The notes below the pieces were generated by a model that saw nothing but the letters and a program-made list of their open reading frames with translations, had not been told where the DNA came from and ran no database searches. From NCBI GenBank assembly GCA_947476045.1, contig CANJNZ010000003.1, positions 44,931 through 108,930 on the forward strand: a stretch of DNA of 64,000 bases, read 5' to 3'. Positions 1,224-26,325 of this stretch are shown here, in pieces (positions within the stretch are counted from its first letter, which is position 1; each line of letters opens with the position of its first letter). The stretch comes from Chthoniobacteraceae bacterium. Lineage in GTDB: Bacteria > Verrucomicrobiota > Verrucomicrobiia > Chthoniobacterales > Chthoniobacteraceae. Position numbers and translations under genes: made by a program.

Positions 1224-4200
1224 TCAATTGTTACCGTGTTTCTCCACCATCTTTGCCAGACGCTCACATAACACATCCAACTCTAGATGATAATCCGAGA
1301 TGTCAGGATGCTTTTCAACCAGCCTCTTCCAGATTTCAACTGCGGTGTTGAATGCCGCTTCCGCGCTTGTGCAGTCCTGCTGTGCTTCGAATACCTCGGC
1401 CATGGACTGCCACGCCTCTGACAATATGCACTGGAAATGCCGAGGGGCGTTGGGCAGCGCGACCAGTTTCTGCAAGACGGCAATCGCGTCGGTGAACGCA
1501 ATCCGCGCACCGGTCCAATCTTGCCGCTCCACTCGGGCGTCAGCCAAGGAAAGCTGCGATACCGCCAGTCCGATCTGGTAAGTTGGCGAGTCAGGACGCT
1601 CCGCTAGCAGTTTCGCCCAGATCGCTTCCGCGTTCTTGAACGCCGTTTCCGCGCCTGCCCAGTCCTGCCGCGCTTTGCAAACGGCGGCCGAGTTTTCCCA
1701 AGCCATTGCAAACTTGATTTGAAAGTCCGGCGCGCTCGGATTCTCGTCAGCCAAATTCTTGCTGATCGCAATCTCATTCGTGACAGCCACCTCTGCGCCC
1801 GCTAAGTCCTTTTGCTCCAATCGCAGCGCGCACTGCTTTCCCCATGAGACCGCCAGCCCGGACTGATAATCGAGCACCTCGGGATAGTCATCCATTAGCT
1901 TTTTCAAAATCACCGTCCCGTTGGAAAGCGCTGCTTCTGCGCCCGCTAAGTCCTTTTGCTCCAATCGCAGCGCGCACTGCTTTCCCCATAGCGTCGCTAG
2001 TCCGGCGTGATAATTCGGAACATTAGGATGCTCTGCCACAAGCTTTACACAGATAGCTATTGAGTCATTGAAGTGACTTTCCGCTCCCACCCAATCCAGC
2101 AGCGCGAGCCGTGCGTCACCGACACAAAGCAGCGATACGGCTAGCCCGTTCTGGTAATGCGGATCACCCGGATGCGCCGCCACTAATCTCTCCCAAATCG
2201 CCTTTGAATTCCTGAACGCGGTTTCCGCGCCAGGCAAGTCCTGCCGCTCATTGCACACCTTCCCTACGCGTTCCCACGACACAGTCAACATCCACTGCAA
2301 ACGCTGATCGCCAGGATTTGCCGTAGCGAGCTTGTCCCTGACCATCATGGCCTCTTTGAATGCCACGTCTGCACCCGCCAAGTCCTGTTTTGCCAATCGC
2401 ACGTCGCCGAGGTGAATCCACGAAGTAGACAAATCCAAATGATAATCTGGGTCGCTGGGGTCCGCAGCAATTAGCTTTTGCCTGATCACCACGGCCGGGT
2501 GGAACGCCGCCTCCGCACCAACAAGGTCCTTCCTCGCTCTTCGGACGGCGCCGAGGCGATCCCATGACGCCGCCGAGCAACGGAGAGTTGGGATTTCTGG
2601 GCGTGCAGCAGTCACTTGCTGAAAGCGGCGACAGACAGCCATCCACGCAGTTTCCTTAAGCACTAACACACCGTGAGGCTCAGCATGGTCTTCCAAAAAA
2701 TCCGTCCAGGCTCGACACAACGCGTCGGTGGATTCCGCATTAGGTCCATATTCATTCGCAAGCTGTGAAGCCTCCAATTCGCAAAGCCAATGATCGAAGT
2801 GCGCCGCCTGAGCGGTGCGCTTGGCGAGCCAAACGGCGTTTCGAAACCAGTCTATCGGGATAGGGGTCTTTAGAGCAGCGGTTTCAGCGTGGCAGAGCGT
2901 GGCCAGAGCGGAGGAGCGTCTTTCCGGAAGTTGCTCGCGCCAGAGCGCACGGGCGAGCGCGGCGGCGAGTGAGTGGACGGGGTAGGCGTTCCGCTTTTCG
3001 TCGAGGACGGCAAGTCGCAGGCTGAGCAACTCACGACGGGCTGCGAAGAATTGGCGTTGCTGCGTTCGTTGCGCGGTATCCAACTCGGCGGCGAGCGCCC
3101 AGAGGTCCTCCGGCGCACCGTGGGCCGGATGAAAGGCGCTTAGGGTAGCGAAGAGGCGCCGCGCGGTGGCGGCGAGAGCGGGCTGGATGCGTGTGAGCGA
3201 ACTTTCGAGGAATCGGCGGGCATTGTCGCGTCGATCGGAATTGGCGAATTCGGTCAGGGGATCGGCTTGGGTCTCCCTCGCGATCTGTTGGATTTCCTTC
3301 GCGATCTGGGTGGAAGTCGCCGGGTTATTGTGGCCGATGGCGCGGCCGGCCCAGACAAGGAACTGAGGGATGAACTCGGCATGATGTGCGATCGAATCAA
3401 GCCCGGCGCTTGCCGCGTCATTCAGCGTGGTCGGGTCGAGGCCCGCGTGGTGGCAGAGCAATTCGCGGCTATCCTTCAGAGTGAGCGGCCCCACCTCATG
3501 CGTGGGGCGCCCGTCAAGACCCTGCACGCCGGGATTGGGCTTGCCTCGGGTAAGCCAGGCGATGTGCGTATTGCCGCCCAGCGGTTCCATGAATTCGCCA
3601 ATGTAGGACTCGGGCACATTCTCCGCGCCCTCGAGCACGACGAGCACGCTTCGCCTAGCGAGGAGGTCACGTGCTTGCGTCTTAAGCTTGGGAAGGTCCT
3701 CGAACGGCACTTTGCCAAGTCCAGAGACAATGTCCGTGAGCATGGCCTCTTGAAGCCAGTTTAGAACCCAATCAGAGACCCATGAATTGAAATGCTGCGG
3801 GGGATACTTGAACGGAGGTGCCGACTCGCCCGAGGAGTTCCACGGGGGGTTGCAGACGAGCGGCATACGTTTGTTTAAGTCAATGTAAAGCCTCCCGCCG
3901 GGAAAAGCGCCTTCGCTTTTCTCGACAAGACGCCGGACGGCTTCGATCACGAATGCCGACTTGCCGATGCCCGCCTGGCCATGGACAACGACTACTCCCG
4001 GTTGGCGAAGGGAATCCATGAGCGCCTCCACTTTTCCAGCGCCCACGTAATGCCCTGCGCGTAAGGTGAGAGGGATCGTGTCAGGCACGCTCTCGCTCTT
4101 GATCCGATCGACGATGAGCCGGACGAGCGTAGGCACGTTCGGCGCGAGCATTGCGCCTGGGGCCATGCCTTCGCGGTGGGTCTCGGGAAAGATAAGTGTG

Positions 4201-6044
4201 AGATTGGCGAGATGGCGTTCGAGGGCATCGAGCTTCGGTTGCTCGGCGGCGCCGAGTTCCTGCAACGGCCCGTGCTCGGGCAGTGTCGGCAGCACCAACA
4301 GCGGGAGCAGCGTGATGACCTTGCTCCGAATATCTGCATCGATTGCCGCGCCTTCGCGCGCCCGCTGCCCAAGGTAGACCAACCCGATGAGAAACGCCGC
4401 ACCCGCGCTGCGCCCGTGCAGCGGGGCGCCTGGTTTCCACGGTTCGGTTTCGGCGGTGGAAACGTCACTGCGCGAGTAAGCGTCGTCTTCATTCACCAAT
4501 TCGACGCGCCAGCGCACGTCGGCACTTTTCGGAATCGAAAAACGGTGCTCCTCCGCATGGCCGAGAGCCGCCGTGATCGCCCCGTCCCAAGTGGCATCCG
4601 TGAAGATGCCGCCGACAATTCCCTTGTCGTCCATGGAGCCGGCCATATTCTGATGAGGATAGAGGCTGCCGGTGCAACCGTCGTCTTCTATCCATTCCAT
4701 CTTGAGGCGGGCAAGTCGCCCTTTATCGGTGACATCCACGAGCACTAGCGGAGGCGTGACGCAGCGCAAAGCCGCCCGTGGGTTCCCTCTCTGTTGCAGC
4801 GCCAACAGGTCGGCAACAAGACCCGTGGGCAACTGCGGCTGCGGCGGTTGCCAGGTTGCGGCAAATTTCGAGAGCCCTTCGATGGCTTTGGCCAGCGAGT
4901 CCGGCTGCAACTCTTTCAGGTGCATCTGTGCATCAACGACAAACAGTGGGTCGTAGATGGGATGAATATTGGACGGCGTGGCTGTGAGTGAGTGGCGATC
5001 CGTATCGGCTTCATTGTGACGAACGACCGCAACTTTTCCCTCCCGAAGCAGAGCGACGGCATCTTTCCAAGGCAGGTCGATTTCGATCACCGCCGTCCAG
5101 CGCCGGGAATTCTCACGAAACAAACCCGTCTTGCTAGGGCTGTCCAACCACGAAACAACGACGGCCGATGGCAGTCGACTTCCCTGCTGCACCGGGCAGG
5201 AAAAGTTAAGCACGGTAGCTTCGCCCGGCTTGGAGACCGACTCATGTGCAAATCCCGTAAACCCAGGCAGCAGGTGCGAAACGTCAATCTGCTTGGGCAA
5301 ATTAGATTCGCCTGCCGCAAATGCACCTTTGAGGTCAGGCTGGAGCAAGGACAATCCAAGCCAGCCAAATACACGCTCGCCAAAGGGCACCGAGGATGGC
5401 TCCAGCCGCACAGCCTCGTCCGAAATTGCCGCTGACTCGGTCAGATCTTCGAGCACAGTTGCCATGAGCGGCTGCAGGTTTGTCGCAAGATTCGCGTGGA
5501 AAATGTAACCGGGATCCTCGGGGTGCGTGAAAGGGCGCCCCGTTTTCAGCAACGGTGGAAATGCGGGTGCCGTTTCGTCATCCTCCGCCTCCATCCACGC
5601 GGCGAAGTCCGCGAGTCGATCAAACCACTCGTCGGGCAGGACGCCTTCGCAGCGGTCTAGTTCCTTGCTGGTGAGCGTGAATTCGCAACCGCAGGCCACC
5701 GCCGCTTCGTAGCCGAAGACTTCGCGTGGAAAGATGGCGTCCTCGACGCCACAGTAGCGGATGTCCGCCAGGACCGGTGCTGCGCGAAAAACGGCATGTT
5801 CCCCTGCGGGTTCCTCCTGTCGCCTGAGGATGATCACGGTGGAACAATGTGGGTTGGTGCGAGAGTAGTCTTGATCCTCTGTCTGCTGGTTGTTTTCAAC
5901 GACTCGCCATATTTCGCCGGGTGCGGCGAGGTTCGGCGGGCACTTGGACGGTGGTTCCAATGCCCCTGTTGGCGGAGGGCTATCCTCCAGCGATTTCAGC
6001 AGGTCGCCGAGGCCGGGAATTTTAAGTAGTTCTTTACGTGTCAT
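1224..6044 (-). CDS. Large Lon-like protease / STAND P-loop NTPase / TPR protein
   Basis: The track begins at 6305, but that part overlaps the upstream gene. The ATG at 6044 (MTRKELLKIPGLGDLL) lies 19 nt after the upstream stop and is preferred, giving about 1606 residues. Order seen: an N-terminal region of about 440 residues I cannot assign; a Lon/S16-like region (about 450-640) with HGRSAGAAF resembling the catalytic-Ser box, then a PKLDAL...LTLIFPE segment resembling the catalytic-Lys strand-helix of Lon; a P-loop NTPase with Walker A GQAGIGKSAF (near 686) and a hydrophobic VLVVLEGAE Walker-B-like strand; and a C-terminal array of about 48-residue TPR repeats (W-x-x-L-G-x-V...AK-DL-GAE-AF). 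Protease-STAND-TPR architecture is typical of prokaryotic conflict proteins that sense a trigger by TPRs and oligomerise. The spacing of the putative Ser and Lys (about 58 residues) exceeds that of classic Lon, so the protease call is an inference. Confidence 0.7.
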   Translation of the reverse strand: MTRKELLKIPGLGDLLKSLEDSPPPTGALEPPSKCPPNLAAPGEIWRVVENNQQTEDQDYSRTNPHCSTVIILRRQEEPAGEHAVFRAAPVLADIRYCGVEDAIFPREVFGYEAAVACGCEFTLTSKELDRCEGVLPDEWFDRLADFAAWMEAEDDETAPAFPPLLKTGRPFTHPEDPGYIFHANLATNLQPLMATVLEDLTESAAISDEAVRLEPSSVPFGERVFGWLGLSLLQPDLKGAFAAGESNLPKQIDVSHLLPGFTGFAHESVSKPGEATVLNFSCPVQQGSRLPSAVVVSWLDSPSKTGLFRENSRRWTAVIEIDLPWKDAVALLREGKVAVVRHNEADTDRHSLTATPSNIHPIYDPLFVVDAQMHLKELQPDSLAKAIEGLSKFAATWQPPQPQLPTGLVADLLALQQRGNPRAALRCVTPPLVLVDVTDKGRLARLKMEWIEDDGCTGSLYPHQNMAGSMDDKGIVGGIFTDATWDGAITAALGHAEEHRFSIPKSADVRWRVELVNEDDAYSRSDVSTAETEPWKPGAPLHGRSAGAAFLIGLVYLGQRAREGAAIDADIRSKVITLLPLLVLPTLPEHGPLQELGAAEQPKLDALERHLANLTLIFPETHREGMAPGAMLAPNVPTLVRLIVDRIKSESVPDTIPLTLRAGHYVGAGKVEALMDSLRQPGVVVVHGQAGIGKSAFVIEAVRRLVEKSEGAFPGGRLYIDLNKRMPLVCNPPWNSSGESAPPFKYPPQHFNSWVSDWVLNWLQEAMLTDIVSGLGKVPFEDLPKLKTQARDLLARRSVLVVLEGAENVPESYIGEFMEPLGGNTHIAWLTRGKPNPGVQGLDGRPTHEVGPLTLKDSRELLCHHAGLDPTTLNDAASAGLDSIAHHAEFIPQFLVWAGRAIGHNNPATSTQIAKEIQQIARETQADPLTEFANSDRRDNARRFLESSLTRIQPALAATARRLFATLSAFHPAHGAPEDLWALAAELDTAQRTQQRQFFAARRELLSLRLAVLDEKRNAYPVHSLAAALARALWREQLPERRSSALATLCHAETAALKTPIPIDWFRNAVWLAKRTAQAAHFDHWLCELEASQLANEYGPNAESTDALCRAWTDFLEDHAEPHGVLVLKETAWMAVCRRFQQVTAARPEIPTLRCSAASWDRLGAVRRARKDLVGAEAAFHPAVVIRQKLIAADPSDPDYHLDLSTSWIHLGDVRLAKQDLAGADVAFKEAMMVRDKLATANPGDQRLQWMLTVSWERVGKVCNERQDLPGAETAFRNSKAIWERLVAAHPGDPHYQNGLAVSLLCVGDARLALLDWVGAESHFNDSIAICVKLVAEHPNVPNYHAGLATLWGKQCALRLEQKDLAGAEAALSNGTVILKKLMDDYPEVLDYQSGLAVSWGKQCALRLEQKDLAGAEVAVTNEIAISKNLADENPSAPDFQIKFAMAWENSAAVCKARQDWAGAETAFKNAEAIWAKLLAERPDSPTYQIGLAVSQLSLADARVERQDWTGARIAFTDAIAVLQKLVALPNAPRHFQCILSEAWQSMAEVFEAQQDCTSAEAAFNTAVEIWKRLVEKHPDISDYHLELDVLCERLAKMVEKHGNN
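1792..1989. repeat. Near-identical 144-bp TPR-encoding repeat units
   Basis: A stretch of more than 50 identical bases starting TCTGCGCCCGCTAAGTCC occurs at 1792 and again at 1936, an offset of exactly 144 bp (48 codons). It encodes the shared peptide WGKQCALRLEQKDLAGAE in two adjacent TPR units. The other units of the array are clearly diverged, so this pair is a recent in-frame duplication or gene-conversion product inside the sensor region. Confidence 0.85.
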
Positions 6045-6063
6045 GGCTCGTTGCCCGTTCGGG

Positions 6064-7386
6064 TCATTCTTGTTTGAAGGCGCCGGAATCCGGATTTTCC
6101 GGATCAAAATTACAGAATTCCACAGAGTGGGCCAGACAGCGCAGGACTTCGGTCCACAGCTTGTCGTGCCAGTCGGAAATCTCTGAGTAGGCATCCAGAA
6201 ATTCGTCCGCCATGAGCACCTTCTTGAGAATCGCCAACGCCTGTTTCTTTTTGTCAAACACTGTTGAGTGAGCCCCGAATTCTTCAAGGTTTGCCTTCCT
6301 TTCAAGCAACTCCTTGGCGAGCAGGTATTGGCAGGTGATGGTGGTCAAATTGTCTGCCCGAAGCGCGTCCCACCCCTGTTTTGCGAGCTTTAAAACGAGT
6401 TCCCAAAAAGCATCTTCCGTCGGAGGGTGACGCAGTCCCATTTTGTTTTTCGAAGATTGGTGCTTCGCAGCTTGTTGATCTACAAACTCATTTTGATCCT
6501 CGTCATCGGCGGTGGACTCAGGCTCGAAGATCATCTCCAGCAAATGCACATGCTCGCAAAACTTGGCGAGCAAGTTGTCGAACCTGACCCAACCGTCGGC
6601 ACAATCCAGCAGCATGACGGCGAGTTTTTCTGCATCCTTTGGTGCTATCACCCTCGGATGAGATGCGTGCCAACGGTTCGCCCGTGGCGGATAGAAATGC
6701 GGGAGAGAGTCAGCCTTCTTAAAAAAGGCAACGAGATCCGCCGCCGGCGGCTTCCCATCATGCGCGTTGGTGACGCTCAAGGTAGCCCATTCCGTGAATT
6801 TTGTGTTGGTTCGCTGATCCACACGCACGCCCCGGCCTGTTCCTCCGAGACACTTCGCATGACCCCGTTTCTCCAACTCCCACAAAGCTTCGCTCAGGAG
6901 TTGCCTAAGTTCCGCCCAAGCGGGATCAAGCTCCTGTTTGAGCACACGGTTCATGTGGGTCACGAGGCCGCTTTTCTGACGTGGCACTGGACAGGGGTAG
7001 TGCTTTCGTTCCAGTTTGATCAGGGTCAGATAATCGGACGCGAGATCCTCGATTTCGGAGCCAGGGAAGCCCGCCGCGAGTCCCCTTGCGCAGCCTTCGC
7101 AACACGTCCATAAGAAAAGAATCAAGCGGCACTCCTCCTCTTCCGACATGTCTTCAAGACGACCATCAAGCCACACACGCATGGCTTTGCTGATTTCAGA
7201 TTCGGGGCGGTCGTTTGGCATAACGGGTTTCAGTATTGCGACCGTCGGTTCCTGTTCCGCTGCTCCCTCCACCAACGCGGGCATTTTGCAGCGCACTGAT
7301 GAGCTTCTGTTAAGTATTGCTTTGGCAACATCCCACAGTAACTCGGGCCTCCAAGGCATGATGCCGAAACTATCTGATCTTCGCAC
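6064..7386 (-). CDS. Unknown protein paired with the Lon-STAND-TPR gene
   Basis: The ORF encodes 440 residues, with the stop 19 nt before the ATG of the large STAND gene, so the two are almost certainly co-transcribed. The first 55 residues look non-globular. An alternative ATG at 7221 (MPNDRPESEISKAM) would give 385 residues; no Shine-Dalgarno separates the choices. The body is helical, with a Cys pair in LFLWTCCEGCARGLA, an acidic linker (ESTADDEDQNEF) and a helical C-terminus. I recognise no family. As a tight partner of a protease-bearing STAND protein it could be the regulator or substrate, as anti-sigma-like partners are for other Lon-type defence proteases, but nothing in the sequence proves this. 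Confidence 0.6.
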   Translation of the reverse strand: MRRSDSFGIMPWRPELLWDVAKAILNRSSSVRCKMPALVEGAAEQEPTVAILKPVMPNDRPESEISKAMRVWLDGRLEDMSEEEECRLILFLWTCCEGCARGLAAGFPGSEIEDLASDYLTLIKLERKHYPCPVPRQKSGLVTHMNRVLKQELDPAWAELRQLLSEALWELEKRGHAKCLGGTGRGVRVDQRTNTKFTEWATLSVTNAHDGKPPAADLVAFFKKADSLPHFYPPRANRWHASHPRVIAPKDAEKLAVMLLDCADGWVRFDNLLAKFCEHVHLLEMIFEPESTADDEDQNEFVDQQAAKHQSSKNKMGLRHPPTEDAFWELVLKLAKQGWDALRADNLTTITCQYLLAKELLERKANLEEFGAHSTVFDKKKQALAILKKVLMADEFLDAYSEISDWHDKLWTEVLRCLAHSVEFCNFDPENPDSGAFKQE

Positions 7387-8061: not shown

Positions 8062-9069
8062 ATGTCGCGCTTGAAATCCCCGGTTCGTCTTCCCAAAGCC
8101 TCGCAATTTTCGCGTCCACCGCTGGAGCGGATGATGCGGCTGCACAAGAAGCTGATCGCCGGCGATTTTCCGAACTGCCGCAAACTGGCCGATGAAATGG
8201 AGGTCTCCACCAAGACCATCCAGCGTGACATTGATTTCATGCGGGATCGACTCGGTCTGCCGATTGAATACGACCAGCTACATTTTGGATTCTTTTACAC
8301 CGAACCCGTCACACACTTCCCGAGCGTGGAGGTTTCCGAGGGCGAAGTGGTGGCGCTCTTCGTCGCGCAGAAGGCGCTGGAACAGTATCGCGGCACGTCT
8401 TTTGAAAAGCCGCTGCGCACCGCCTTTGAGAAAATCACGGACGGCCTCAAGGAGCGGATCGGATTTCAGTGGGGTGATGTGGACTCGGCGATTTCTTTCA
8501 AGGGACTTGGCACCAGCGTGGCAGACCTTGAACTATTCGAGACGGTGAGCCGGGCGACCCTCGACTCCCACGAACTCGCATTTGAATACAAGAAGCTGCG
8601 CGGTTCGCAACATGAGGAGCGACGCATCCAGCCCTACCATCTCGGCTGCATCGAGAATCAGTGGTATGTGTTCGGATTCGATCTGGCGCGGCAGCAATTG
8701 CGCACATTCGCCCTGCCACGGATGCGCAAGGTGCGCGACACGCGGGCGAAATTCCGGCGCCCGGCAGATTTCTCGATTTCAAACCACCTCAGCGACAGCT
8801 TCGGCGTATTCAAGGGAAAGGCAAAACACCATGTGGTGATTCGTTTTGATGAGTTCGCGGCCCGTCTTGTGTGCGAGCGCCAGTGGCATCCATCGCAAAA
8901 GATCAAACGGCTCGCTGGTGGCGAGGTGGAGCTGAGCATGACGCTCGGCAGCCTGGAGGAAATCGAGCGCTGGGTGTTGAGCTGGGCCGAACATTCAAAA
9001 GTGCTAGAACCGATGGAATTGAAACGGCGCATCCGCAAGGCGGCCTCGGCGATTCTGGCGGGGACGTGA
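8062..9069 (+). CDS. HTH-WYL transcriptional regulator
   Basis: This 335-residue protein has an N-terminal winged-helix of DeoR type (CRKLADEMEVSTKTIQRDI, near residues 38-60) and a central WYL domain (IQPYHLGCIENQWYVFGFD...LRTFALPRMRKV, near 190-225), followed by a WCX-like C-terminal part. WYL regulators bind nucleic-acid or nucleotide ligands and commonly control phage-defence loci such as BREX, CBASS and DISARM, usually as repressors. The canonical W-Y-L is W-Y-V here. The gene is the first plus-strand gene of the island and precedes the DUF2779 nuclease by 75 nt, so it may regulate that gene and perhaps the DISARM operon. The start ATG at 8062 (MSRLKSPVRL) has no clear Shine-Dalgarno; the HTH begins well after it. 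Confidence 0.85.
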   Translation: MSRLKSPVRLPKASQFSRPPLERMMRLHKKLIAGDFPNCRKLADEMEVSTKTIQRDIDFMRDRLGLPIEYDQLHFGFFYTEPVTHFPSVEVSEGEVVALFVAQKALEQYRGTSFEKPLRTAFEKITDGLKERIGFQWGDVDSAISFKGLGTSVADLELFETVSRATLDSHELAFEYKKLRGSQHEERRIQPYHLGCIENQWYVFGFDLARQQLRTFALPRMRKVRDTRAKFRRPADFSISNHLSDSFGVFKGKAKHHVVIRFDEFAARLVCERQWHPSQKIKRLAGGEVELSMTLGSLEEIERWVLSWAEHSKVLEPMELKRRIRKAASAILAGT

Positions 9070-13449: not shown

Positions 13450-14397
13450 ATGAATGCAAAACACATCACCGTCACCGGCCCGTTCACACATGAAAACCTC
13501 AGCATCTTTCTCCTGCGCGGCAGCGATACGCTGGACGGCAGCCGCTTCATCCCGCTCGATCAGGCGTTGGAGCAGAAATTCGTCACCGTTCACGAGACCG
13601 GGACCGTCGGACAACTGGAGGTCGAAAACCTGTCCGACTCGCTCGACCTCTACATCCAGGCTGGCGATGTGGTGAAGGGCGGACGTCAGGATCGCACGCT
13701 CGGTGTTGATTTTGTCCTGCCTGCAAAATCCGGGCGCGTGCCAATCCCGTCGTTCTGCGTGGAAAGCGGGCGCTGGCACCGGCGTGCAGAAGAGGATGCG
13801 GGATCATTTTCCAGCGCCAAATCATCCCTCAGCAATAAATCCCTCCGCATGGCCGCCAAGATGAGCAAGTGCCAGGGCGAAGTGTGGGCCAAGGTCGCCG
13901 AAGCGCAGGACAAATTGAGCGAGAGCCTGGACAAAAACATCAAGGCCTGCGCCTCACCGAGCAGCTATCTGCTTTCCGTCGAGGACGACGACCTGCTCAA
14001 GCGCAAGGACGGCTATCGCGCAGCACTGGCAAAAATCATTGATGATGCGCCCGACGCCGTGGGCTACGCCTTCGCAATCAACGGCGAAATCAACACCGCC
14101 GACAGCTACGGCTCCGGCATTCTGTTTCGCAAACTCTGGAGCAAGCTGCTCGACGCCGCAGTGCTGGAAGCCATCTCCGAATCCCGTCGCAACACGAAAA
14201 AGAAAACAGCCCCCGTCACGGCGGATTCAATTCGACAATGGTTCGGCGAGGCAGACCTGAGCCAGATCTTCGAACGAAACGAAGTCCCGCCCCGCGTCCG
14301 CGTGGACACCCGGCGCAACGAAAAGACCTACGTATTCGACACCTGCGACCACGCCTTCAACGACGCAGTGCTGCACAAGAATCTCGTTTCGTGCTGA
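13450..14397 (+). CDS. ARPP-1 (DUF6569-type) domain protein
   Basis: This 315-residue protein shows the ARPP-1 (ADP-ribosylglycohydrolase and rhodanese-phosphatase associated) pattern: a repeated beta segment with LEVENLSDSLDLYIQAGDVV, the GGRQDRTLGVDFVLP strand (near 78-92), then IPSFCVESGRW. Homologues typically read V-E-N-x-S-D, G-x-x-Q-x-R-x-L and C-V-E-x-G-R-W here. The molecular role of this family is not established; association with ADP-ribose metabolism comes only from its name-giving fusions. The gene is 33 nt upstream of the probable drmD start, so it may belong to the DISARM transcript. Confidence 0.7.
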   Translation: MNAKHITVTGPFTHENLSIFLLRGSDTLDGSRFIPLDQALEQKFVTVHETGTVGQLEVENLSDSLDLYIQAGDVVKGGRQDRTLGVDFVLPAKSGRVPIPSFCVESGRWHRRAEEDAGSFSSAKSSLSNKSLRMAAKMSKCQGEVWAKVAEAQDKLSESLDKNIKACASPSSYLLSVEDDDLLKRKDGYRAALAKIIDDAPDAVGYAFAINGEINTADSYGSGILFRKLWSKLLDAAVLEAISESRRNTKKKTAPVTADSIRQWFGEADLSQIFERNEVPPRVRVDTRRNEKTYVFDTCDHAFNDAVLHKNLVSC

Positions 14398-14429
14398 GGT
14401 CGGACAGCATACGCGAGTTCGAAACAGCA

Positions 14430-17400
14430 GTGTTGCCTCGCATAAGTTATCCAATTATTCAACCGCTCGTGGCCGGAGCACCTACAACCCCCATCGAAAC
14501 AGACACCGTTGAATCCGCGGCTCCTGAGCCCGGACAGGTGGTGCGTGCGCGCACGCGCACTTGGCTCGTCGAGGAGGTTGAACCGCGGCGCGATGGCGGC
14601 GGATACACGGTCGTCCATCTCGCGTGTGTCGATGATGATGCACAGGGCCAAATGCTCGAAGTAATTTGGGAGCACGAACTCGACGCTCGCATCCTGAATG
14701 AAGAAGCGTGGAGCAGCATCGGCGAGCGCGGGTTCGATGACGCGCGACCGTTCAGCGCGTTCCTCCACACGCTGCGGTGGAACTGCGTCACGGCCACCGA
14801 TCCCTCGCTTTTCCAAGCGCCGTTCCGCGCGGGCATCCGAATTGACGCCTACCAGCTTGAGCCGCTTCGCAAGGCGCTGCGCCTGCCGCGCGTGAATCTT
14901 TTCATCGCGGACGACGTGGGCCTCGGAAAAACTATCGAGGCTGGACTCATCGCCACGGAGTTGCTGTTGCGCCGTCGCGTGCGCGAAATCGTCGTCGCTG
15001 CGCCGCCTTCGATGTTGCTCCAGTGGAAAGAGGAACTCGAAAGCCGCTTCGGCCTCGTCTTTGAAATTCTCGACCGCGCTTACATTGAGCGCGTGCGCCG
15101 CGAACGCGGTTACAGCGTGAATCCGTGGGAAACATTCCCGCGCTTCCTCGTCTCGCACAAGCTGCTCATCGACGAGACCTACTCCGGTCCGATGCGCAAC
15201 TGGCTCGACAACCTCCGCCCCGGCTCACTGCTCATTCTGGACGAAGCGCATCACGCCGCGCCTGCCAGTGGCTCGCGCTACGCGATTGATTCGCGCTTCA
15301 CTCGCGCCATCCGTGACCTCGCCGCGCGCTTCGAGCACCGCTTGTTTCTCTCCGCGACGCCGCACAACGGCCACTCGAACAGCTTCAGTGCGCTGCTCGA
15401 ATTGCTCGACCCGCAGCGATTCCTGCGCGGGGTGAAAGTGCTCAAGAGCAATCTCGACGCAGTGATGGTCCGCCGGCTGAAAGACGACTTGCGCGAAGTG
15501 CTCGGTGAAGGATTCGCCATCCGCAAAGTGGTGCAGGTGGACATCAAGGGGCTGCCTGCCGACGCGCCGGAACTACGCCTCTCGCGACTGCTCGACGAAT
15601 ACCGCGAAACGCGCCAGCTCCGCCTCGCCGGTGCCTCCAAGCGCGAGCAAGCCGAGGCGATGCTCGTCGTCTCGCACCTTCAGCAGCGGCTTCTTTCCTC
15701 CATCGAAGCCTTCGCACGCACGCTGGCAGTCCATCGCCGCACGATGGAGCGAGTGTGGGAAAAGAGCGCCGGTGCGACAAAAGCCAACGCCACGGCACAG
15801 CTCGACGAATTCGACTCGGACGACGAACGCTCCGCGCTCTCCGAGGACGAGCAGCAGCAGCTTCACGAGCGCGCCGTCGAAGCCGCGACCGCCGCATCCT
15901 CCGGCGACGCCGCCCGCGCGGACATTGCAAAAGAGCGTGCGTTGCTCGACGAACTCGCCGGCATCGCCGACGCCGCGCGCAGTCAGCCGGATGCGCGGAT
16001 GCGTTATCTCATCGGGTGGATTCGGGAGCACATGTGCCCCGGTGGAAAATGGAACGACCTGCGCGTGCTCATCTTCACCGAATACGACGACTCGCGCCGC
16101 TATCTCGTGAATATGCTCCGCGATGCGCTCGCGAACACCGACCACATCGAGGCGCGCATCGAGGTCTTCCACGGCCCGACTCCGATGGAGAAGCGCGAGG
16201 AAATCAAACGCGCGTTCAATGAGCCGACCGACCGCCATCCGCTGCGCATCCTCGTCGCCACCGATGCCGCGCGCGAGGGCATCAATCTCCAGGCGCAGTG
16301 CTGGAACCTTTTCCATTTCGACGTGCCGTGGAATCCGTCGCGCCTCGAACAGCGCAACGGCCGCATCGACCGCAAGCTCCAGCCCTCGCCCGAGGTCTTC
16401 TGCCACTACTTCGTCTATGAGCAGCGCCCGGAGGACGCCGTGCTGAAGGCGCTCGTGCGCAAAACGGACACCATCCGCAAGGAACTCGGAAGCCTCGCCC
16501 AAGTCCTCGAACACCGGCTCTCCGACACGCTGCGCCACGGCATCTCGCACAAAGCCGCCGCGCAAATCCGGGCGAGCATTGAGGGCGAGGCACTCGACGA
16601 AAACCAGCGCGCCGTCGCCGAGGAAGAACTTGAAGCCACGCGCGAGCGCCACGACGCGCTCCGCAAGCAAGTCGAGACCCTGCGCAACCGCATCAATGAC
16701 GCCCGTGCGTGGATTGGCCTCGACCACGACCAGCTCCGCGACGCCCTCTCATGCTCGCTCGAGATGCTCCGCGCCGCGCCGCTCACGTCCGTCGCCGCGC
16801 CCGCTGGCGAGCCTGCGCGCTTCGCCTTCCCGCGCCTGGAGAGCACCCACATCGGCGGCGCATCGTGGACGCCCACGCTCGACACACTCCGCGCACCGCC
16901 ACGCGAAGGGCCGCGCGATTTCCAGTGGCGACGCGAAGCACCAATCCGCCCCGTCATCTTCGACCCGCCGCGCGGCGTGGACGACACCGTGGTGCAACTC
17001 CATCTCTCGCACCGCGTCGTCCAGCGCCTGCTCGGTCGCTTCCTCGCGCAAGGCTTCGTCCATCACGACCTTTCCCGCGCATGCTTCGCGCAGACACGCG
17101 ATGCCGTGCCGCGCGTCATCCTGCTGGGCCGACTCGCGCTTTACGGTGCGGGCGCGGTGCGGTTGCACGAGGAAATCCTCGCCGTCAGCGCCGCCTGGCA
17201 GCCAGCAGATGCGCGCAAAAATCCGCTCAAGCCCTATGCCCGCGCCGCCGACACGAAGACGCGCGAACTGCTCGAAGACGCGCTTCGCACCGGCAGAGGC
17301 GCACCGCTGTCGGAGAAAGTTCAGGCGCAGCTTCTCGCCAGCGTGCAAGCCGACATCCGGGACCTGCTGCCGCACCTGCACACGCGCGGCGACGAAGCCC

Positions 17401-17708
17401 GCGCCGATGCGGAAAAGATGCTCACCGAGCGTGGCCGCATCGAGGCCGACGAACTCACGCGAATCCTTGAACAGCAGCGCCGCCGTGTGCTTGAGGAAAT
17501 GGGCCGCGCCGACGCCTTCCAGCTCGAACTCAAACTCGACGACGAGCGCAAGCAGCACGAGTCCAACCGCCGCTACTGGCAGCAATGGCTCGACAACATC
17601 GCCGGCGACCTCGACCGCGAGCCCGCACGCATCCGCGATTTCTACGCCGTCACGACCTCACGCGTGGAGCCGGTCGGCATCGCCTACCTTTGGCCCGTCA
17701 CGGGATAA
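14430..17708 (+). CDS. drmD: DrmD, SNF2-family helicase of class 1 DISARM
   Basis: The track start 14238 overlaps the ARPP-1 gene. The first sensible start after its stop is GTG 14430 (VLPRISYPII), giving about 1092 residues; a GTG near 14469 is also possible. Motifs: Walker A DDVGLGKTIEAG (near 160), DEAH box LLILDEAHH (near 270), SATPHNGHSNSF (motif III, near 308), helicase-C ATDAAREGINLQ and RLEQRNGRIDR (about 610-650), and a long helical C-terminal half. This is the architecture of DrmD, the class 1-specific SNF2 helicase of DISARM, which restricts phage DNA. The stop abuts the drmMI start, so the two are translationally coupled. The strong GC3 bias matches drmMI but not the inserted genes downstream. 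Confidence 0.92.
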   Translation: MLPRISYPIIQPLVAGAPTTPIETDTVESAAPEPGQVVRARTRTWLVEEVEPRRDGGGYTVVHLACVDDDAQGQMLEVIWEHELDARILNEEAWSSIGERGFDDARPFSAFLHTLRWNCVTATDPSLFQAPFRAGIRIDAYQLEPLRKALRLPRVNLFIADDVGLGKTIEAGLIATELLLRRRVREIVVAAPPSMLLQWKEELESRFGLVFEILDRAYIERVRRERGYSVNPWETFPRFLVSHKLLIDETYSGPMRNWLDNLRPGSLLILDEAHHAAPASGSRYAIDSRFTRAIRDLAARFEHRLFLSATPHNGHSNSFSALLELLDPQRFLRGVKVLKSNLDAVMVRRLKDDLREVLGEGFAIRKVVQVDIKGLPADAPELRLSRLLDEYRETRQLRLAGASKREQAEAMLVVSHLQQRLLSSIEAFARTLAVHRRTMERVWEKSAGATKANATAQLDEFDSDDERSALSEDEQQQLHERAVEAATAASSGDAARADIAKERALLDELAGIADAARSQPDARMRYLIGWIREHMCPGGKWNDLRVLIFTEYDDSRRYLVNMLRDALANTDHIEARIEVFHGPTPMEKREEIKRAFNEPTDRHPLRILVATDAAREGINLQAQCWNLFHFDVPWNPSRLEQRNGRIDRKLQPSPEVFCHYFVYEQRPEDAVLKALVRKTDTIRKELGSLAQVLEHRLSDTLRHGISHKAAAQIRASIEGEALDENQRAVAEEELEATRERHDALRKQVETLRNRINDARAWIGLDHDQLRDALSCSLEMLRAAPLTSVAAPAGEPARFAFPRLESTHIGGASWTPTLDTLRAPPREGPRDFQWRREAPIRPVIFDPPRGVDDTVVQLHLSHRVVQRLLGRFLAQGFVHHDLSRACFAQTRDAVPRVILLGRLALYGAGAVRLHEEILAVSAAWQPADARKNPLKPYARAADTKTRELLEDALRTGRGAPLSEKVQAQLLASVQADIRDLLPHLHTRGDEARADAEKMLTERGRIEADELTRILEQQRRRVLEEMGRADAFQLELKLDDERKQHESNRRYWQQWLDNIAGDLDREPARIRDFYAVTTSRVEPVGIAYLWPVTG

Positions 17709-20700
17709 ATGAGCCACAATCCCGCCATCGACGACCACCAAGCCTGGCTCGGATACCTCCAGCCGGACGGCCTCGTCGTATCCGCGGCGGCGCTCGTGGA
17801 CGCGCAGGCGATTCTTAATCGCGGGGAGTTCATCGCATTGCAGGAAAAGTTCACGCCGTTCGTCGGGCACGTTGCGCCGAAGTTCGGCGAGGACAAACCG
17901 CTCCCCGCCATCACCGACCTCCCGGCGTTCCTATGTGGATTCCTCGACTGGCCGGACGACTGCCTTGCTGCCGACATCCCCGAGTCGCTCAAGCTCGCGC
18001 TCGCCGAAGGCGAAACGCTCGCGCCCGACTTCACCTTCCGTGAGCCGAAGCCCGCCGACCCCGCGCGCCCGTGGCTCCTGCTCATCCAGCAGCTCCCGCC
18101 CGGCACCGACTTCGACGCGCGCACCTCCGCCGACGCCCGTTCGTGGGCCGCGTCCCCGGCGCAACGATTCGAGCGACTGCTACGCGGGGTCGAGGTGCCC
18201 ATCGGCCTGCTCAGCAACGCCACGCATCTACGCCTCATCTACGCCCCTCGCGGCGAAAACTCCGGCTCGCTCACGTTCCCCGTCGCCGCGATGGCCGAGA
18301 TCGCCGGGCGGCCCATTCTCGCCGCGCTGCACATGCTCCTCGGGCGCTACCGGCTGCTCGCGGCACCGCGCGAGAGCCGCCTCGCGGGGCTGCTCCAGCG
18401 CAGCCGCGATTACCAGTCCAGCGTCTCCACCGCGCTCGCCCGGCAGGTGCTCGATGCCCTTTACGAACTTCTCCGCGGCTTCGAGCACGCCCACGCGCAG
18501 ACCGGCGCCACGCTCCTGCGCGAAGTCCTCGAGAAAAACCCCGACGACATCTACGCCGGCCTCCTCAGCGTCCTCATGCGCCTCGTCTTCCTGCTCTATG
18601 CGGAAGACCGCGGCCTGCTCCCGGCCTCCGAGCTTTACGCCCGCGGTTACAGCATCCACGGCCTTTTCGAGCGGTTGCGCGAGGATGCGGAAAAATACCC
18701 CGACACCCTCGATCTCCGCTACGGCGCGTGGGCTCAGCTCTGCGTCCTCTTCCGGCTCATTCACGGCGGCTGCAAACACCCGCGCATGGCCATGCCCCCG
18801 CGGCGCGGCCACCTCTTCGACCCCGACCGCTATCCCTTTCTCGAAGGCCGGCCCACGCAGAGCGCCGCCATCAATCAGCAGCTTCCGCTCGTCAGCGACG
18901 GCACGCTCCACCGCGTCCTCTCGCGCCTGCTCATCCTCGATGGCGAACGCCTCAGCTACCGCACCCTCGACGTCGAGCAAATCGGCTCCGTCTATGAGAC
19001 CATGATGGGCTTCCGCATGGAAATCGCCCGCGGCCCGAGCATCGCGCTGCGTCCGGCAAAAAGCCACGGCGCACCCGTCGCCATCCCGCTCGACCAGCTC
19101 CTCGCCGAAAAGCCCGCAGAGCGCGCGAAGTGGCTCCGCGAGCGCACCGACCTGAAAATCGAAGGCCCCGCCGCCACGCGACTGCGCGACGCCGCCAGCC
19201 TCGAAGACCTCCTCGCGGCGCTGCAAAACCGCCTCGCGAAAAACGCGACGCCCGCGCTCGTCGCCCCCGGCGGCCTCCTGCTCCAGCCCAGCGACGAACG
19301 CCGCCGCTCCGGCTCCCACTACACGCCGCGCGCCCTCACCGGACCCATCGTGCGAAAGGCCCTCGCGCCCATTTTGGCAAAGCTATGCGGCGGCGACGTT
19401 CATTGGACGAAATGGGATGCTCCAGTGCCGCAGATGCCGGCCATCCCAAAACCAGAGGAAATCCTCGCCCTCAAAATCTGCGACCCCGCCATCGGCTCCG
19501 GCGCATTCGTCGTCGAGACCTGCCGCCAGCTTGCCGAGGCGCTCGTCGCCGCGTGGCGCGTCCACGGCGGCACGCCGCCGATTCCGCCGGATGAAGACGA
19601 ACTCCTCCTCGCCCGTCGCCTCGTCGCCCAGCGCTGCCTCTATGGCGTGGACCGCAACCCCATGGCCGTGGACCTCGCCAAGCTCTCCCTCTGGCTCGCC
19701 ACCCTCGCCCGCGACCACCCCTTCACCTTCCTCGACCACGCCATCCGCCCCGGCGACAGCCTCGTCGGCCTCAGCCGTGCCCAACTCCTCCGCTTCCACT
19801 GGCAGCCCCAGGCCCAGCTCTTCGCAGGAAGCAAAGAACTCATCACCGCCATCGAGAGCGCCACACGCGAACGCCGCGACATCCTCGCCATGACCGCGGA
19901 TGATCCCTACTCAGTCGAACTCAAGCGCGCGAAGCTCGCCAACGCCGACAGCGCCTTGGATTCAATCCGCCGCGCCGGCGACCTCTGCCTCGCCGCCTTC
20001 TTCATGGAGGAAAAAGACCGCGCCCGCGTGAATCGGCGCGACGACCACCTCCAGCGCCTCCTCGCCGCGCGCAGTGGCGATGTCGCCGAAATGCAGCGCA
20101 TCGTGCAAATCCTCCGCGAACTCCGCAGCGGCCCGCACCCCATCACCCCGTTTCATTGGGAAATCGAATACCCCGAAGTCTTCGACCGCGAGAATCCCGG
20201 CTTCGATGGCTTCGTCGGCAATCCGCCGTTCTTGGGTGGCCTCCGTGTCTCAAACATGCTCGGCATGCAGTTCTTTGGATACCTCATCGAAGCCTATCCT
20301 GGAGCTGGCCATCTGTGCGACCTAGTCGCCTACTTTTTCAGGCGAGTTTTTGCGTTACTCCGAGACCGGGGAACTTTCGGGTTAGTGGCAACCAACTCAA
20401 TCGCGCAGGGTGATACGCGCACCGGCGGATTGGCGTGGATATGCAGCCACGGGGGCCACATCTACCATGCGCACCGTCGGCAACGCTGGCCGGGTGAAGC
20501 GGCTGTGATGGTCTCATTCATTCACGTCTCCAAAGGCGAACCAGGTGAGCCAGTCATACTCGACGAGAAAGTTGTTCCGCGAATCACCGCTTACCTGTTC
20601 ACAAGTGGCGGCAACGCAGACCCATCTCGATTGGCAGGAATGAACGACCTCTTCTCACAAGGCACGAACATCCGAAGTTCGGGATTTCTCATTGGAGATG

Positions 20701-21755
20701 ACGATGAGGCGACTACGACGGACGAAATGAGGAGCCTTATTGCCGCCTCGCCTGCGAGTGAGTCACGTATTTTTCCATATTTGGGTGGCGAAGAAATCAA
20801 CAGCAGTCCTAACCAGCTACCGCGCCGGTTCGTAATCTACCTGAGCGACCTTCGGGAAGAGTCACAATTGCAAGCGTGGCCTGAGCTTACCGAAATCGTC
20901 CGAAAGAAGGTCAAACCAGAGCGAGACGCGCTTGGTGACAACCCGAACAATATTCCCCTGAAACGGCGCTGGTGGGCCTACCACGCTGACCGGCTTAGCT
21001 TCTACGCCGACCTCAAACGGGTGCTGGTGATGTCACAGGTGAGTGGTCACTTGGCTTTTACTTTTCAACCAACGAATCGGGTGTTCGGAAACACTCTCAA
21101 TATGTTTCGGATCGAGAAGGATGAAGGGTTTGCTGTGCTCCAGTCGCGCGTTCACGAGTCATGGGCGCGCTTTTTCGCCAGCACGATGAAGGACGACATG
21201 CGCTACACGCCGAGCGACTGCTTCGAGACCTTCCCATTCCCCGAGGGCTGGGCGAGCGACGGCGAACTGGAGGCGGCGGGGCGCGAATACTACGAAGCGC
21301 GCGCCGCGCTGATGGCGCGCACCGGCCAGGGCCTCACCGCCACCTACAACCGCTTCCACGACCCCGACTTTCAAAACGACCCCGACATCCGAAAGCTGCA
21401 CGAACTTCACGCCCGCATGGACGCCGCCGTCCTCCGCGCCTACCGCTGGCCCGACCTCCTCGACCGCTGCACCTGCGAATTCCTCCTCGAATACGAAGAC
21501 GACGAGGACGAATCCGAGACCGACGGCAAACCCCGCCGCCGCAAAAAGCCCTACCGCTACCGCTGGCCCGACCTCGTCCGCGACGAAGTCCTAGCCCGCC
21601 TCCTAGCCCTCAACGCCACCCGCGCCGAACAGGAACGCCTCACCGGAGCCACCGCCGAAGCCGGCAAAGCGAAAGGCAAGCGTCCCAAGAAATCCGCCAC
21701 GGCCCCCGCACAAACCGACCTCATCCCGCCACCACAGCGAGATTTGTTCGTATGA
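17709..21755 (+). CDS. drmMI: DrmMI, N6-adenine DNA methyltransferase of class 1 DISARM
   Basis: The ATG directly follows the drmD TAA. The 1348-residue product has SAM-binding motif I ICDPAIGSGAFVVE (near 589) preceded by SGSHYTPRALT, and the catalytic motif IV GNPPF (near 836), which define an N6-adenine methyltransferase of the large PglX/type IIG-like class. In DISARM it marks self DNA so that the DrmABC and DrmD parts spare it. The C-terminal end has an acidic-to-basic linker (EDDEDESETDGKPRRRKKP). Between about 20230 and 21150, just after NPPF, codon use drops from extreme GC3 to mixed, then returns. That segment is where target-recognition domains sit, so it looks like an exchanged specificity module. 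Confidence 0.92.
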   Translation: MSHNPAIDDHQAWLGYLQPDGLVVSAAALVDAQAILNRGEFIALQEKFTPFVGHVAPKFGEDKPLPAITDLPAFLCGFLDWPDDCLAADIPESLKLALAEGETLAPDFTFREPKPADPARPWLLLIQQLPPGTDFDARTSADARSWAASPAQRFERLLRGVEVPIGLLSNATHLRLIYAPRGENSGSLTFPVAAMAEIAGRPILAALHMLLGRYRLLAAPRESRLAGLLQRSRDYQSSVSTALARQVLDALYELLRGFEHAHAQTGATLLREVLEKNPDDIYAGLLSVLMRLVFLLYAEDRGLLPASELYARGYSIHGLFERLREDAEKYPDTLDLRYGAWAQLCVLFRLIHGGCKHPRMAMPPRRGHLFDPDRYPFLEGRPTQSAAINQQLPLVSDGTLHRVLSRLLILDGERLSYRTLDVEQIGSVYETMMGFRMEIARGPSIALRPAKSHGAPVAIPLDQLLAEKPAERAKWLRERTDLKIEGPAATRLRDAASLEDLLAALQNRLAKNATPALVAPGGLLLQPSDERRRSGSHYTPRALTGPIVRKALAPILAKLCGGDVHWTKWDAPVPQMPAIPKPEEILALKICDPAIGSGAFVVETCRQLAEALVAAWRVHGGTPPIPPDEDELLLARRLVAQRCLYGVDRNPMAVDLAKLSLWLATLARDHPFTFLDHAIRPGDSLVGLSRAQLLRFHWQPQAQLFAGSKELITAIESATRERRDILAMTADDPYSVELKRAKLANADSALDSIRRAGDLCLAAFFMEEKDRARVNRRDDHLQRLLAARSGDVAEMQRIVQILRELRSGPHPITPFHWEIEYPEVFDRENPGFDGFVGNPPFLGGLRVSNMLGMQFFGYLIEAYPGAGHLCDLVAYFFRRVFALLRDRGTFGLVATNSIAQGDTRTGGLAWICSHGGHIYHAHRRQRWPGEAAVMVSFIHVSKGEPGEPVILDEKVVPRITAYLFTSGGNADPSRLAGMNDLFSQGTNIRSSGFLIGDDDEATTTDEMRSLIAASPASESRIFPYLGGEEINSSPNQLPRRFVIYLSDLREESQLQAWPELTEIVRKKVKPERDALGDNPNNIPLKRRWWAYHADRLSFYADLKRVLVMSQVSGHLAFTFQPTNRVFGNTLNMFRIEKDEGFAVLQSRVHESWARFFASTMKDDMRYTPSDCFETFPFPEGWASDGELEAAGREYYEARAALMARTGQGLTATYNRFHDPDFQNDPDIRKLHELHARMDAAVLRAYRWPDLLDRCTCEFLLEYEDDEDESETDGKPRRRKKPYRYRWPDLVRDEVLARLLALNATRAEQERLTGATAEAGKAKGKRPKKSATAPAQTDLIPPPQRDLFV

Positions 21756-21816
21756 TATTTAAGCGTATTTTCCGCAAAAACATTGCCATGTCTAATTTCT
21801 TGACGATATTCGGAGC

Positions 21817-23154
21817 ATGATTCTGCAATTTTCAGTCTCAAACTTTCGTGCGTTTCGCAAGATGCAGACGCTGAATCTGGCCGCAAGCAACTACGACAAG
21901 ACGCTGCCGCAAAACTGCATCACGCCGGACCTACCCGGCCTGAAAGGTCGCCGGTGGGTCAAAGGAGCGGCGATTTACGGCCCCAACGCGAGCGGCAAGA
22001 GCAGTGTGCTCGAAGCGCTGCGGGCAATGGTGAATCTGGTGCGCAATTCGGCCAAAACGACAGACCCGAAGGAGCCCATCGCTGGCATCGAGCCGTTTGC
22101 CTTTGCGCCGGAAGCACTCACGGAACCAACTGGGTTCGGCCTCGTCTTCGTGAACGCTGGAGTGCGTTACGAATACCGGGTGGCGGCGACGCTCGATCGC
22201 GTCTGGCACGAGTCACTGCGGGCGTTCCCGGACAAATGGGAGCAGACTTGGTTCTGCCGGAACTGGAACCCGGAGACGGCGAGCTACGATTGGACTCCCG
22301 AGAAGCCATCCGGCTACAAGCGCGACCCGAAGCGCGAGGAATACACGCTGCCGAATGTGCTGTATCTCTCGAAGGCGGTGAGCCTCGGCGACACCCAGCT
22401 AGAGCCGGTGTTCGGCTGGTTCCGGGAGCGGCTTCGGTTTCTGGACTTGAGCGCAGGCGCGGGTTTCCACGGCTCATTTTCCATGGAGCAACTCGTGAAG
22501 CGGAGCCCGCTGGCACCGCGCATCATCGAGATGTTGCGCCATGCCGACCTCGGCGTCGCCGATGCGCGAGTGAAAGAGGTGGAAATGGCCAATCAAATCG
22601 CGGAGCAGGTATTGCTACAGTTGCCGGAACCGGCGCGTGCGCAGGCGGCCACGAACAAGTGGGTGCAGCCTGAATTGCTGCACAACGTCCCCGGCACGGA
22701 ACCGATGCCGCTGCCGTGGGAGCGCGAGTCCGTCGGCACGCAGCGCTATTTTGATCTCGCTGGCCCCTGGCTGGACATCATGGCGAAGGGCTTCGTGGTG
22801 TGCATTGACGAACTGGAGACCTCAATGCACCCGCTGATGGTGCGTGAACTACTGCGGCTGATGTTCAGTGCGGAGGAAAATGCGAGCGGCGCGCAGCTCA
22901 TTTTCACTACGCACAACCCGCTGCTGCTCGACCCAACGCTGTTGCGGCGTGATCAGGTGTGGTTTACGGACAAGGACGAGAAGAGCGAAGCTTACGTGTA
23001 TGCTCTCGCAGACTATGCGCCGCGCAAGGGCGAGTCGCTGGTGCGCGGCTATCTCGCCGGGCGTTACGGTGCGGTGCCGTTCATCCCGGAGGGGTTGCTC
23101 GGTTCTTTTCCAGCGATCGAGGAGGCAACGAAAGGAGGCGGCGATGAGCATTGA
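21817..23154 (+). CDS. rloA: RloA-like AAA15-family ATPase
   Basis: This 445-residue protein begins MILQFSVSNFRAF, the usual SMC/RecF-like opening of the AAA15 (COG1106) family, then Walker A GAAIYGPNASGKSS (near 48-61). The C-terminal part contains the Walker B FVVCIDELETSMHP (near 327), a switch TTHNPLLLD (near 365) and the conserved tail Y-L-x-G-R-Y-G-A-V-P. Such ATPases pair with TOPRIM/RloB effectors in RloAB, AbiL and PARIS-like defence modules, sensing phage factors and releasing or activating the nuclease. It starts 61 nt after drmMI and overlaps the RloB gene by 11 nt. GC is somewhat lower than drmD/drmMI, consistent with a separate origin. Confidence 0.85.
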   Translation: MILQFSVSNFRAFRKMQTLNLAASNYDKTLPQNCITPDLPGLKGRRWVKGAAIYGPNASGKSSVLEALRAMVNLVRNSAKTTDPKEPIAGIEPFAFAPEALTEPTGFGLVFVNAGVRYEYRVAATLDRVWHESLRAFPDKWEQTWFCRNWNPETASYDWTPEKPSGYKRDPKREEYTLPNVLYLSKAVSLGDTQLEPVFGWFRERLRFLDLSAGAGFHGSFSMEQLVKRSPLAPRIIEMLRHADLGVADARVKEVEMANQIAEQVLLQLPEPARAQAATNKWVQPELLHNVPGTEPMPLPWERESVGTQRYFDLAGPWLDIMAKGFVVCIDELETSMHPLMVRELLRLMFSAEENASGAQLIFTTHNPLLLDPTLLRRDQVWFTDKDEKSEAYVYALADYAPRKGESLVRGYLAGRYGAVPFIPEGLLGSFPAIEEATKGGGDEH

Positions 23155-23887
23155 GGGGGGCTACGACAAGGACTGGTGGAAAGCGGCGAAGGCGATGAGC
23201 CTCGAACGCGCCGCACACGCGAAAGCCGCGGCAAGTGGAGTCAATGCGGGCGATGCCTTTCTCGTGGTGACCGAGGGCACGGTAACTGAGCCGGTCTATT
23301 TTGAACTGCTGCGCACGGACCTCCAATTGGCAGCAGTGCGGATTCGCATCGAGCCGGGCAAGCACTCGGACCCACGCCATGTGATTGAGACGGCGGCGGG
23401 CGAAGTGAAAGAGCAAGCGCGCCGGGCGAGGAAAGGTCTGCTCGGCAACACGGAGCCGGCGAAGTTCGACCACGTATGGGCGGTGATTGATACGGATGTC
23501 GCTGTGCGTAACGGATTCTGGAACGAAGTCGAAACGCTGGCCCGCACTCGCAAGGTGAAGCTGGCCCATTCGACGCCGTGCTTCGAGTATTGGCTGCTGC
23601 TGCACATCCAGGGGCTGACGACGCGAGGCGACCTCGTGAATGGGGACGCAGCGAAGAGCGCGGTAAAACACGAGCTTGGACAAGACTACTCGACCAACGA
23701 GGAGACGGCACGGGCGGTGATGCCGCTGTTCGTTCCCAAATGGCCGGAAGCAGTGGTGCATGGTGAAACGGTGCGGACATACCACGCCGCGGCTGCGACT
23801 CCGAAACCAGCGAATCCCTCGACCGAAGTGTGCGCGCTGGTGCGCGCTTTGAACGACAGTGCGCCGGCACATTTGCGAAAACTGTAA
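23144..23887 (+). CDS. rloB: RloB-family protein, probable effector partner of the ATPase
   Basis: The ATG at 23144 has a good Shine-Dalgarno (AAAGGAGG) and overlaps the 3' end of the ATPase gene. The 247-residue product shows the RloB pattern: LVVTEGTVTEPVYFELLR (E-G-x-x-x-E-P-x-Y-F, near 42-58), WAVIDTDV with the D-x-D strand (near 112), and STPCFEYWLLLH (near 140). This is a TOPRIM-like arrangement (Glu then Asp-x-Asp) expected to bind divalent metal and cut nucleic acid. RloB proteins are found with anticodon-nuclease-linked or restriction loci. The position right behind an AAA15 ATPase fits a two-gene toxin-type module nested in DISARM. Track ORF 22868 is the same frame with a spurious upstream extension. 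Confidence 0.82.
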   Translation: MSIEGGYDKDWWKAAKAMSLERAAHAKAAASGVNAGDAFLVVTEGTVTEPVYFELLRTDLQLAAVRIRIEPGKHSDPRHVIETAAGEVKEQARRARKGLLGNTEPAKFDHVWAVIDTDVAVRNGFWNEVETLARTRKVKLAHSTPCFEYWLLLHIQGLTTRGDLVNGDAAKSAVKHELGQDYSTNEETARAVMPLFVPKWPEAVVHGETVRTYHAAAATPKPANPSTEVCALVRALNDSAPAHLRKL

Positions 23888-23893
23888 TTGACC

Positions 23894-26017: not shown

Positions 26018-26325
26018 AGATACCACATTTAACCCATCCCGAGCGAAGCGAGTTCTATCCGGTCATCCGCGAAGCTCTTCAGGTGGCCGTTGGCCGCTGG
26101 CCAGTTACGATGAAGTTACGTAAAAAGGGTGGCTATGCCGCCTCAGCAACAGTGCGCATCGCGAATGTGACGGAGAAAGAATTCGATACAGACCGGGAAC
26201 TTCGTGATTTGACGCGCTTTCCTGCCCGAGTCCGGGCCGCCGTCACGGCGCTGCGGGATGGGGGCTGTGCCGGTTCGTTCAAAATCAGTCACGAGGACGG
26301 CACTCTAACCATTGTTCCAGTATGA
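26014..26325 (+). CDS. Small unknown protein coupled to the DUF262 nuclease
   Basis: The start GTG at 26014 overlaps the DUF262 stop (GTGA), which fixes it by translational coupling. The 103-residue product is basic and mixed alpha/beta (RWPVTMKLRKKGGYAASATV ... GGCAGSFKISHEDGTLTIVPV). I know no matching domain. The overlap suggests it works with, or controls, the nuclease encoded before it. It ends about 230 nt before the likely start of the large ATPase gene, the widest gap in the cargo block, so it probably closes one module. Confidence 0.6.
   Translation: MKIPHLTHPERSEFYPVIREALQVAVGRWPVTMKLRKKGGYAASATVRIANVTEKEFDTDRELRDLTRFPARVRAAVTALRDGGCAGSFKISHEDGTLTIVPV

Follow-up and report, generated by a model that had tools for sequence, protein, structure and literature searches.

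The window, a stretch of 64,000 nucleotides from a Chthoniobacteraceae bacterium, carries a gene pair that, by its anatomy, appears to be a Calp-like relay in a new form, with a STAND-TPR module in the place of SAVED and a CalpT-like part fused to the protease. We favour, with moderate confidence, a Calp-type protease relay with a role in defence, in which a STAND-TPR receptor has taken the place of the cyclic-nucleotide sensor. In Calp, CalpT is an anti-sigma factor; CalpL, activated by cA4 and oligomerised, cleaves CalpT, and CalpS is released (PMC11417357, PMC12751052). A CalpT fragment of ~23 kDa resembles MazF (PMC9704534).

A first-pass annotation of this DNA had proposed that a protease-bearing STAND sensor and a dedicated partner form a proteolytic signalling pair. 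Three lines of evidence support this proposal well. First, 13 loci place the partner gene (A) next to sequences for a MazF-fold protein (B) and a Lon-like protease (C). Second, the best PDB match of the protease-family profile is CalpL, a connection to Calp that the annotation did not make. Third, the pair lies in an island with the DISARM system.

Architecture of the gene pair

The larger gene, P0001, runs on the minus strand from an ATG at 6044 to its end at 1224 and encodes 1606 residues. The open reading frame and its motifs confirm the earlier description of a single chain with a protease-like region, a P-loop NTPase and a TPR array. The first ~430 residues had been left without assignment, and it is there that we find a predicted MazF-fold domain. 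The order along the chain is MazF-like domain, linker, Lon-like protease, predicted STAND NTPase and TPR array. The partner, gene A (6064..7221, minus strand), ends with a stop at 6064 and is separated from P0001 by 19 nt. Its most likely start is the ATG at 7221, giving 385 residues. The 440 residues of the first-pass annotation come from a GTG further upstream, at 7386, a start that is probably too early since homology to the relatives begins only at residue 54–63 of that reading; the 19-nt gap and the lack of a family assignment stand.

The MazF-like domain and its linker

The Calp hypothesis had led us to expect, ahead of the fold search, that B would be MazF-like, and a MazF fold was then found. 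In an AlphaFold2 model spanning residues 1–418 of P0001, residues 1–204 (5433..6044, minus strand), which other loci encode as a gene of its own (B), reach a pLDDT of about 75–94 over most of the domain. All 50 matches listed by Foldseek against the PDB are MazF proteins, the best with an E of 4e-5, a probability of 1.00 and a TM of about 0.6 relative to the target, while sequence searches of the PDB with gene B and the MazF-like domain gave no relevant match. The modelled domain, at ~200 residues, is in line with the size of the ~23-kDa MazF-like CalpT fragment, and it shares 37% identity (E 7e-30) with gene B of its nearest relative, L055. Searching with the MazF-domain alignment returned only G124's contig among genome contigs and gave no match in viral contigs; the plasmid search likewise gave no match.

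Residues 205–425 (4770..5432, minus strand) have a pLDDT of about 30 throughout the modelled part and look disordered. This region is a candidate cleavage linker and may include a protease-docking part like CalpT10. The catalytic Thr and Arg of MazF, which we take from known MazF motifs and whose equivalent positions in B are presumed on that basis, are not conserved in an 11-sequence alignment (A11): the position two after the V-x-P proline reads L, L, F, F, T, A, S, S, S, I and F across the sequences. This lack of conservation agrees with a holding role for the domain, as described for CalpT.

Proteases of the cell, Lon among them, are the classical route by which MazF antitoxins are degraded, and this precedent, together with the MazF fold of residues 1–204, invites a toxin–antitoxin reading in which B is a MazF-like RNase toxin, gene A is the antitoxin, and degradation of A by the Lon-like domain leads to cell death or arrest. 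Gene A does lie directly before B, in antitoxin-before-toxin order, and the first-pass annotation's guess that the partner is cleaved on activation would fit. We nevertheless regard this reading as unlikely. The MazF active-site residues, with their inferred equivalence, are not conserved in B; gene A differs from MazE, having about 350–385 residues and several predicted HTH-like parts; and in Calp the cleaved protein is the MazF homologue. By analogy with CalpL, CalpT and CalpS, cleavage of the partner is probably the wrong guess: the MazF-like part would be cut and the partner released, so that the protease probably does not act on gene A.

The Lon-like protease domain

Residues 426–645 (4110..4769, minus strand) carry the signature of a Lon protease. 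The HGRSAG motif noted earlier is at residues 543–548 and places the predicted nucleophile at Ser546 (4407..4409), and PKL at residues 603–605, within PKLDAL, places the predicted general base at Lys604 (4233..4235). An alignment of 11 protease sequences shows G-x-S without exception, and in the relatives and in CalpL the Lys lines up to within one or two residues. Both residues are hence retained across the module, which answers the concern of the first-pass annotation that Ser and Lys might not be conserved in homologues. The link to CalpL is established at the level of the family: a profile of nine Lon-family C sequences has CalpL as its best PDB match (E 1.3e-7), followed by Lon proteases at 0.002 and weaker, and the CalpL alignment passes through G-K-S and the Lys-containing stretch.

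Within the family, the window's own domain has diverged furthest. A leave-one-out profile built from the other members did not recover it at significance, the Lon_C Pfam model has no match in P0001, and alignment to canonical Lon falls into the Ser register with a score that 12 of 200 shuffled sequences equal. A canonical Lon pattern (GxSAG ... G-x-L-x2-L-G ... K-x2-A ... hh-x-P) matches the window protein and none of 20,000 shuffles, and a looser one matches only proteins of this family among 634 frames of at least 150 residues, both patterns having been written after the protein had been seen. The assignment as a Lon protease domain is very likely correct; it draws on signature, spacing and position after B, and not on profile statistics.

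Such divergence could also mean that the protease is dead and serves only as a scaffold that transmits STAND oligomerisation to the MazF-like domain, with release by conformational change. We hold this to be quite improbable, given that HGRSAG, the Lys and the Lon-like spacing are all kept and that the window's motif is closer to canonical GxSAG than are the motifs of its relatives.

The STAND NTPase and the TPR array

Behind the protease, residues 660–1000 (3045..4067, minus strand) form a predicted STAND-type NTPase with a Walker A motif, GQAGIGKS, at residues 689–696 and a Walker B-like LVVLEGAEN. Family matches to AAA_16 (6e-4), NB-ARC (0.08) and nSTAND all fall below the Pfam cut-offs, and the best PDB match of the region is Apaf-1 (0.0034). 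The C-terminal residues 1150–1600 (1245..2597, minus strand) are a TPR array (TPR_12, 2e-15) of eight units with an exact period of 48 residues, which we propose as the sensor. It resembles the TPR array of L023, the other locus with STAND-TPR on the protease.

Gene A

Gene A is a new protein family that has no present annotation: it gave no significant match in Pfam, NCBIfam, PADLOC or the PDB, while it shares 33% identity (E 5e-47) with its homologue in L055 and is conserved in the 12 other A-B-protease loci. Its AlphaFold2 model (pLDDT 63) is mostly helical with winged-helix-like elements and has no significant PDB match in a fold search. A sigma factor was a plausible candidate, both by eye and from the Calp precedent. 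We rejected it after profile–profile comparison with the ECF sigma factors of the same genome detected no similarity and the Pfam, NCBIfam, PDB and fold searches were likewise negative. What fits CalpS is the place of gene A in the gene order and its HTH-like elements; in view of these negative searches, gene A is a regulator by analogy only.

As separate observations, a marginal match (8e-4) at L056 in genome G697 lies in a Fic-like protein and was rejected as a relative of gene A, and gene A of G411 (L022:2248-3420) contains an in-frame TGA, for which a pseudogene, an assembly error or recoding are possible explanations.

A conserved trio with exchangeable sensors

A search with residues 1–670 of P0001 returned one partial match, on a contig where A and B are two distinct genes, with a Lon-like gene after them. 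Profile searches extended this arrangement to 13 loci including the window, always in the order A, B, protease and always on one strand. In the other 12 genomes A, B and C are consecutive genes; in the window B, C, STAND and TPR are fused. Among 388 genomes sampled from the phylum, the A and B profiles match the same five genomes, and B has just one further match, in G321, where a second B-protease pair lacks A (L057).

The region that follows the protease differs from locus to locus. CARF domains are C-terminal on the protease in L013, L014, L022, L030 and L031, where A and B are likewise present; L013 and L014 lie next to a type III-D Cas7, and L031 lies next to Cas10. In L005, L012, L024, L025, L054 and L055 the C-terminal region is helical-looking and of no assigned family. 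STAND-TPR is found in L023 and in the window, and L023 keeps B as a separate gene. In a concatenated A+B+Lon tree of 11 very divergent sequences, which is indicative only, L023 groups with L024 and L025 (support 100) and the window with L005 and L030 (SH-like 0.98). Because the two fall apart on this tree, STAND-TPR was probably acquired twice. The protease of L055 cannot be aligned to that of the window although their A and B proteins are 33% and 37% identical, which suggests that protease and sensor may have been replaced as one block in the window.

Genomic context

To one side of the pair is a tyrosine integrase, at 35.3 kb of the contig and about 9.6 kb to the left of the window; to the other is a class 1 DISARM system (DrmD, DrmMI, DrmA, DrmB) with an AbiLi-like ATPase (14238..38853, plus strand). 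A WYL-WCX regulator (8062..9069, plus strand) is divergent from gene A and is context only. Cas10 was not found in the genome, which is 96.8% complete. A search of this genome for SAVED carries no weight, as it gave no signal in any control genome.

This setting bears on a further alternative, that of a housekeeping or developmental stress switch, built on a general protease relay serving many sensors and unrelated to phage defence. Relatives occur beside kinase, PP2C and vWA genes (L012, L054) and beside a GTPase-like gene (L057), and not beside CRISPR alone. The sparse distribution of the trio (5 of 388 genomes), the island with DISARM and an integrase, and the type III CRISPR links of the relatives argue the other way, and we give the stress switch only a small chance.

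A tmRNA gene (window 46958-47359) and the integrase (L026:1296-2453) bracket a stretch of ~57 kb with the pair and DISARM, a possible integrated island for which att repeats are not established. The DISARM cluster also contains, at window positions 26393-32985 between its AbiLi-like gene and DrmA, a 1655-residue gene that matches AAA weakly and a 542-residue gene of no family.

Proposed mechanism

We infer the following sequence of events, in which the proteolytic activity, the cleavage site, the trigger, the binding of A to B and the action of gene A are all conjectural. At rest, the N-terminal MazF-like domain would keep gene A inactive while the STAND module holds the Lon-like domain off. 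The TPR array would bind a trigger, perhaps a phage component; nucleotide exchange and oligomerisation of the STAND module would then activate the Ser546/Lys604 protease. The protease would cut the flexible stretch behind its own MazF-like domain, either in cis or in a neighbouring subunit, releasing the MazF-like fragment with gene A bound. Once freed, gene A would most likely regulate transcription, like CalpS in Calp.

A broader claim, to which we assign an even chance, is that the Calp core of A, B and Lon-like protease is a relay portable beyond CRISPR and cyclic nucleotides, joined at least twice to NLR-like STAND-TPR receptors so that invaders are sensed directly, with no second messenger, and a new regulator family is released. 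CalpL/T/S, known so far as a type III CRISPR accessory, would then exemplify a modular proteolytic switch that bacteria may plug into different sensors. If true, the chain from STAND receptor through protease to regulator would be a prokaryotic route by which an NLR-like receptor controls genes through proteolysis, with trigger, substrate and released regulator all directly testable.

Comparison with known systems

The closest known system is CalpL-CalpT-CalpS of type III CRISPR in Sulfurihydrogenibium, to which the pair compares by a predicted Lon-like Ser/Lys protease, a MazF-fold part as presumed substrate and inhibitor, and a compact operon whose third gene stands in the place of the regulator; CalpL is also the best match of the protease-family profile. 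The differences are several. The proposed sensor in the window is STAND-TPR and not a SAVED sensor of cyclic oligoadenylate; the MazF-like part is fused to the protease; the third gene is not detectably a sigma factor, whereas CalpS is an ECF sigma factor; and the pair has DISARM nearby in place of a type III CRISPR locus, although some relatives are in type III loci. SAVED, a CRISPR locus and a sigma factor were each looked for in the window system and not found, and we therefore do not file the pair as a member of Calp.

As in the CARF-Lon proteins of type III loci (PADLOC CARF_m2--CARF_LON), CARF domains stand C-terminal on the protease in the relatives L013, L014, L022, L030 and L031; the window protein, in contrast, has neither a CARF nor a SAVED domain. 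With Avs, bNACHT and STAND-protease conflict systems it shares a central NTPase, here predicted to be of STAND type, C-terminal superstructure-forming repeats and an N-terminal effector. The effector differs, being a putative Lon-like protease with a built-in MazF-like domain predicted to hold the partner; to our knowledge, the effectors of known STAND antiphage and conflict systems are nucleases, SIR2, trypsin or caspase. In the type III-B SAVED-CHAT/PCaspase cascade and in trypsin-nuclease pairs, infection triggers a protease that frees or activates another protein (PMC12799240), and the window system departs from these in protease fold and sensor. Compared with the ATP-dependent Lon protease, the NTPase is STAND-like and C-terminal of the protease, and there is no AAA+ Lon ATPase.

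Neighbouring genes at related loci

Several genes beside the relatives deserve mention in their own right. Five loci have a fourth gene of ~110–180 residues directly upstream of gene A (L030:168-710, L005:4470-5003, L012:904-1371, L013:2045-2563 and L022:3291-3629, minus strand), PemK/MazF-like by eye, with the motifs GxVWxGDW ... FAPITS ... LPPGxLP ... SYLL; the window has no such gene. A protein kinase and a PP2C gene lie beside the trio at L012:5677-9636 and L054:8206-13998, in L012 together with vWA and DnaJ genes, resembling a TerY-P-type triad. At L057 of G321 (4265-7528 and 7461-11968), the B-like and Lon-like genes are followed by a GTPase-like gene of 1003 residues and a further gene, and the locus looks like a protease module in a GTPase-centred conflict system. 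Downstream of the protease, L005:9105-15031 carries an Abi_2/HEPN-like gene (RNSIAHH) as well as one for a STAND ATPase. Large genes that look like DUF3800 by eye, without a Pfam match, also lie downstream of the protease, on the opposite strand in L005 and on the same strand in L024 (3691-6627).
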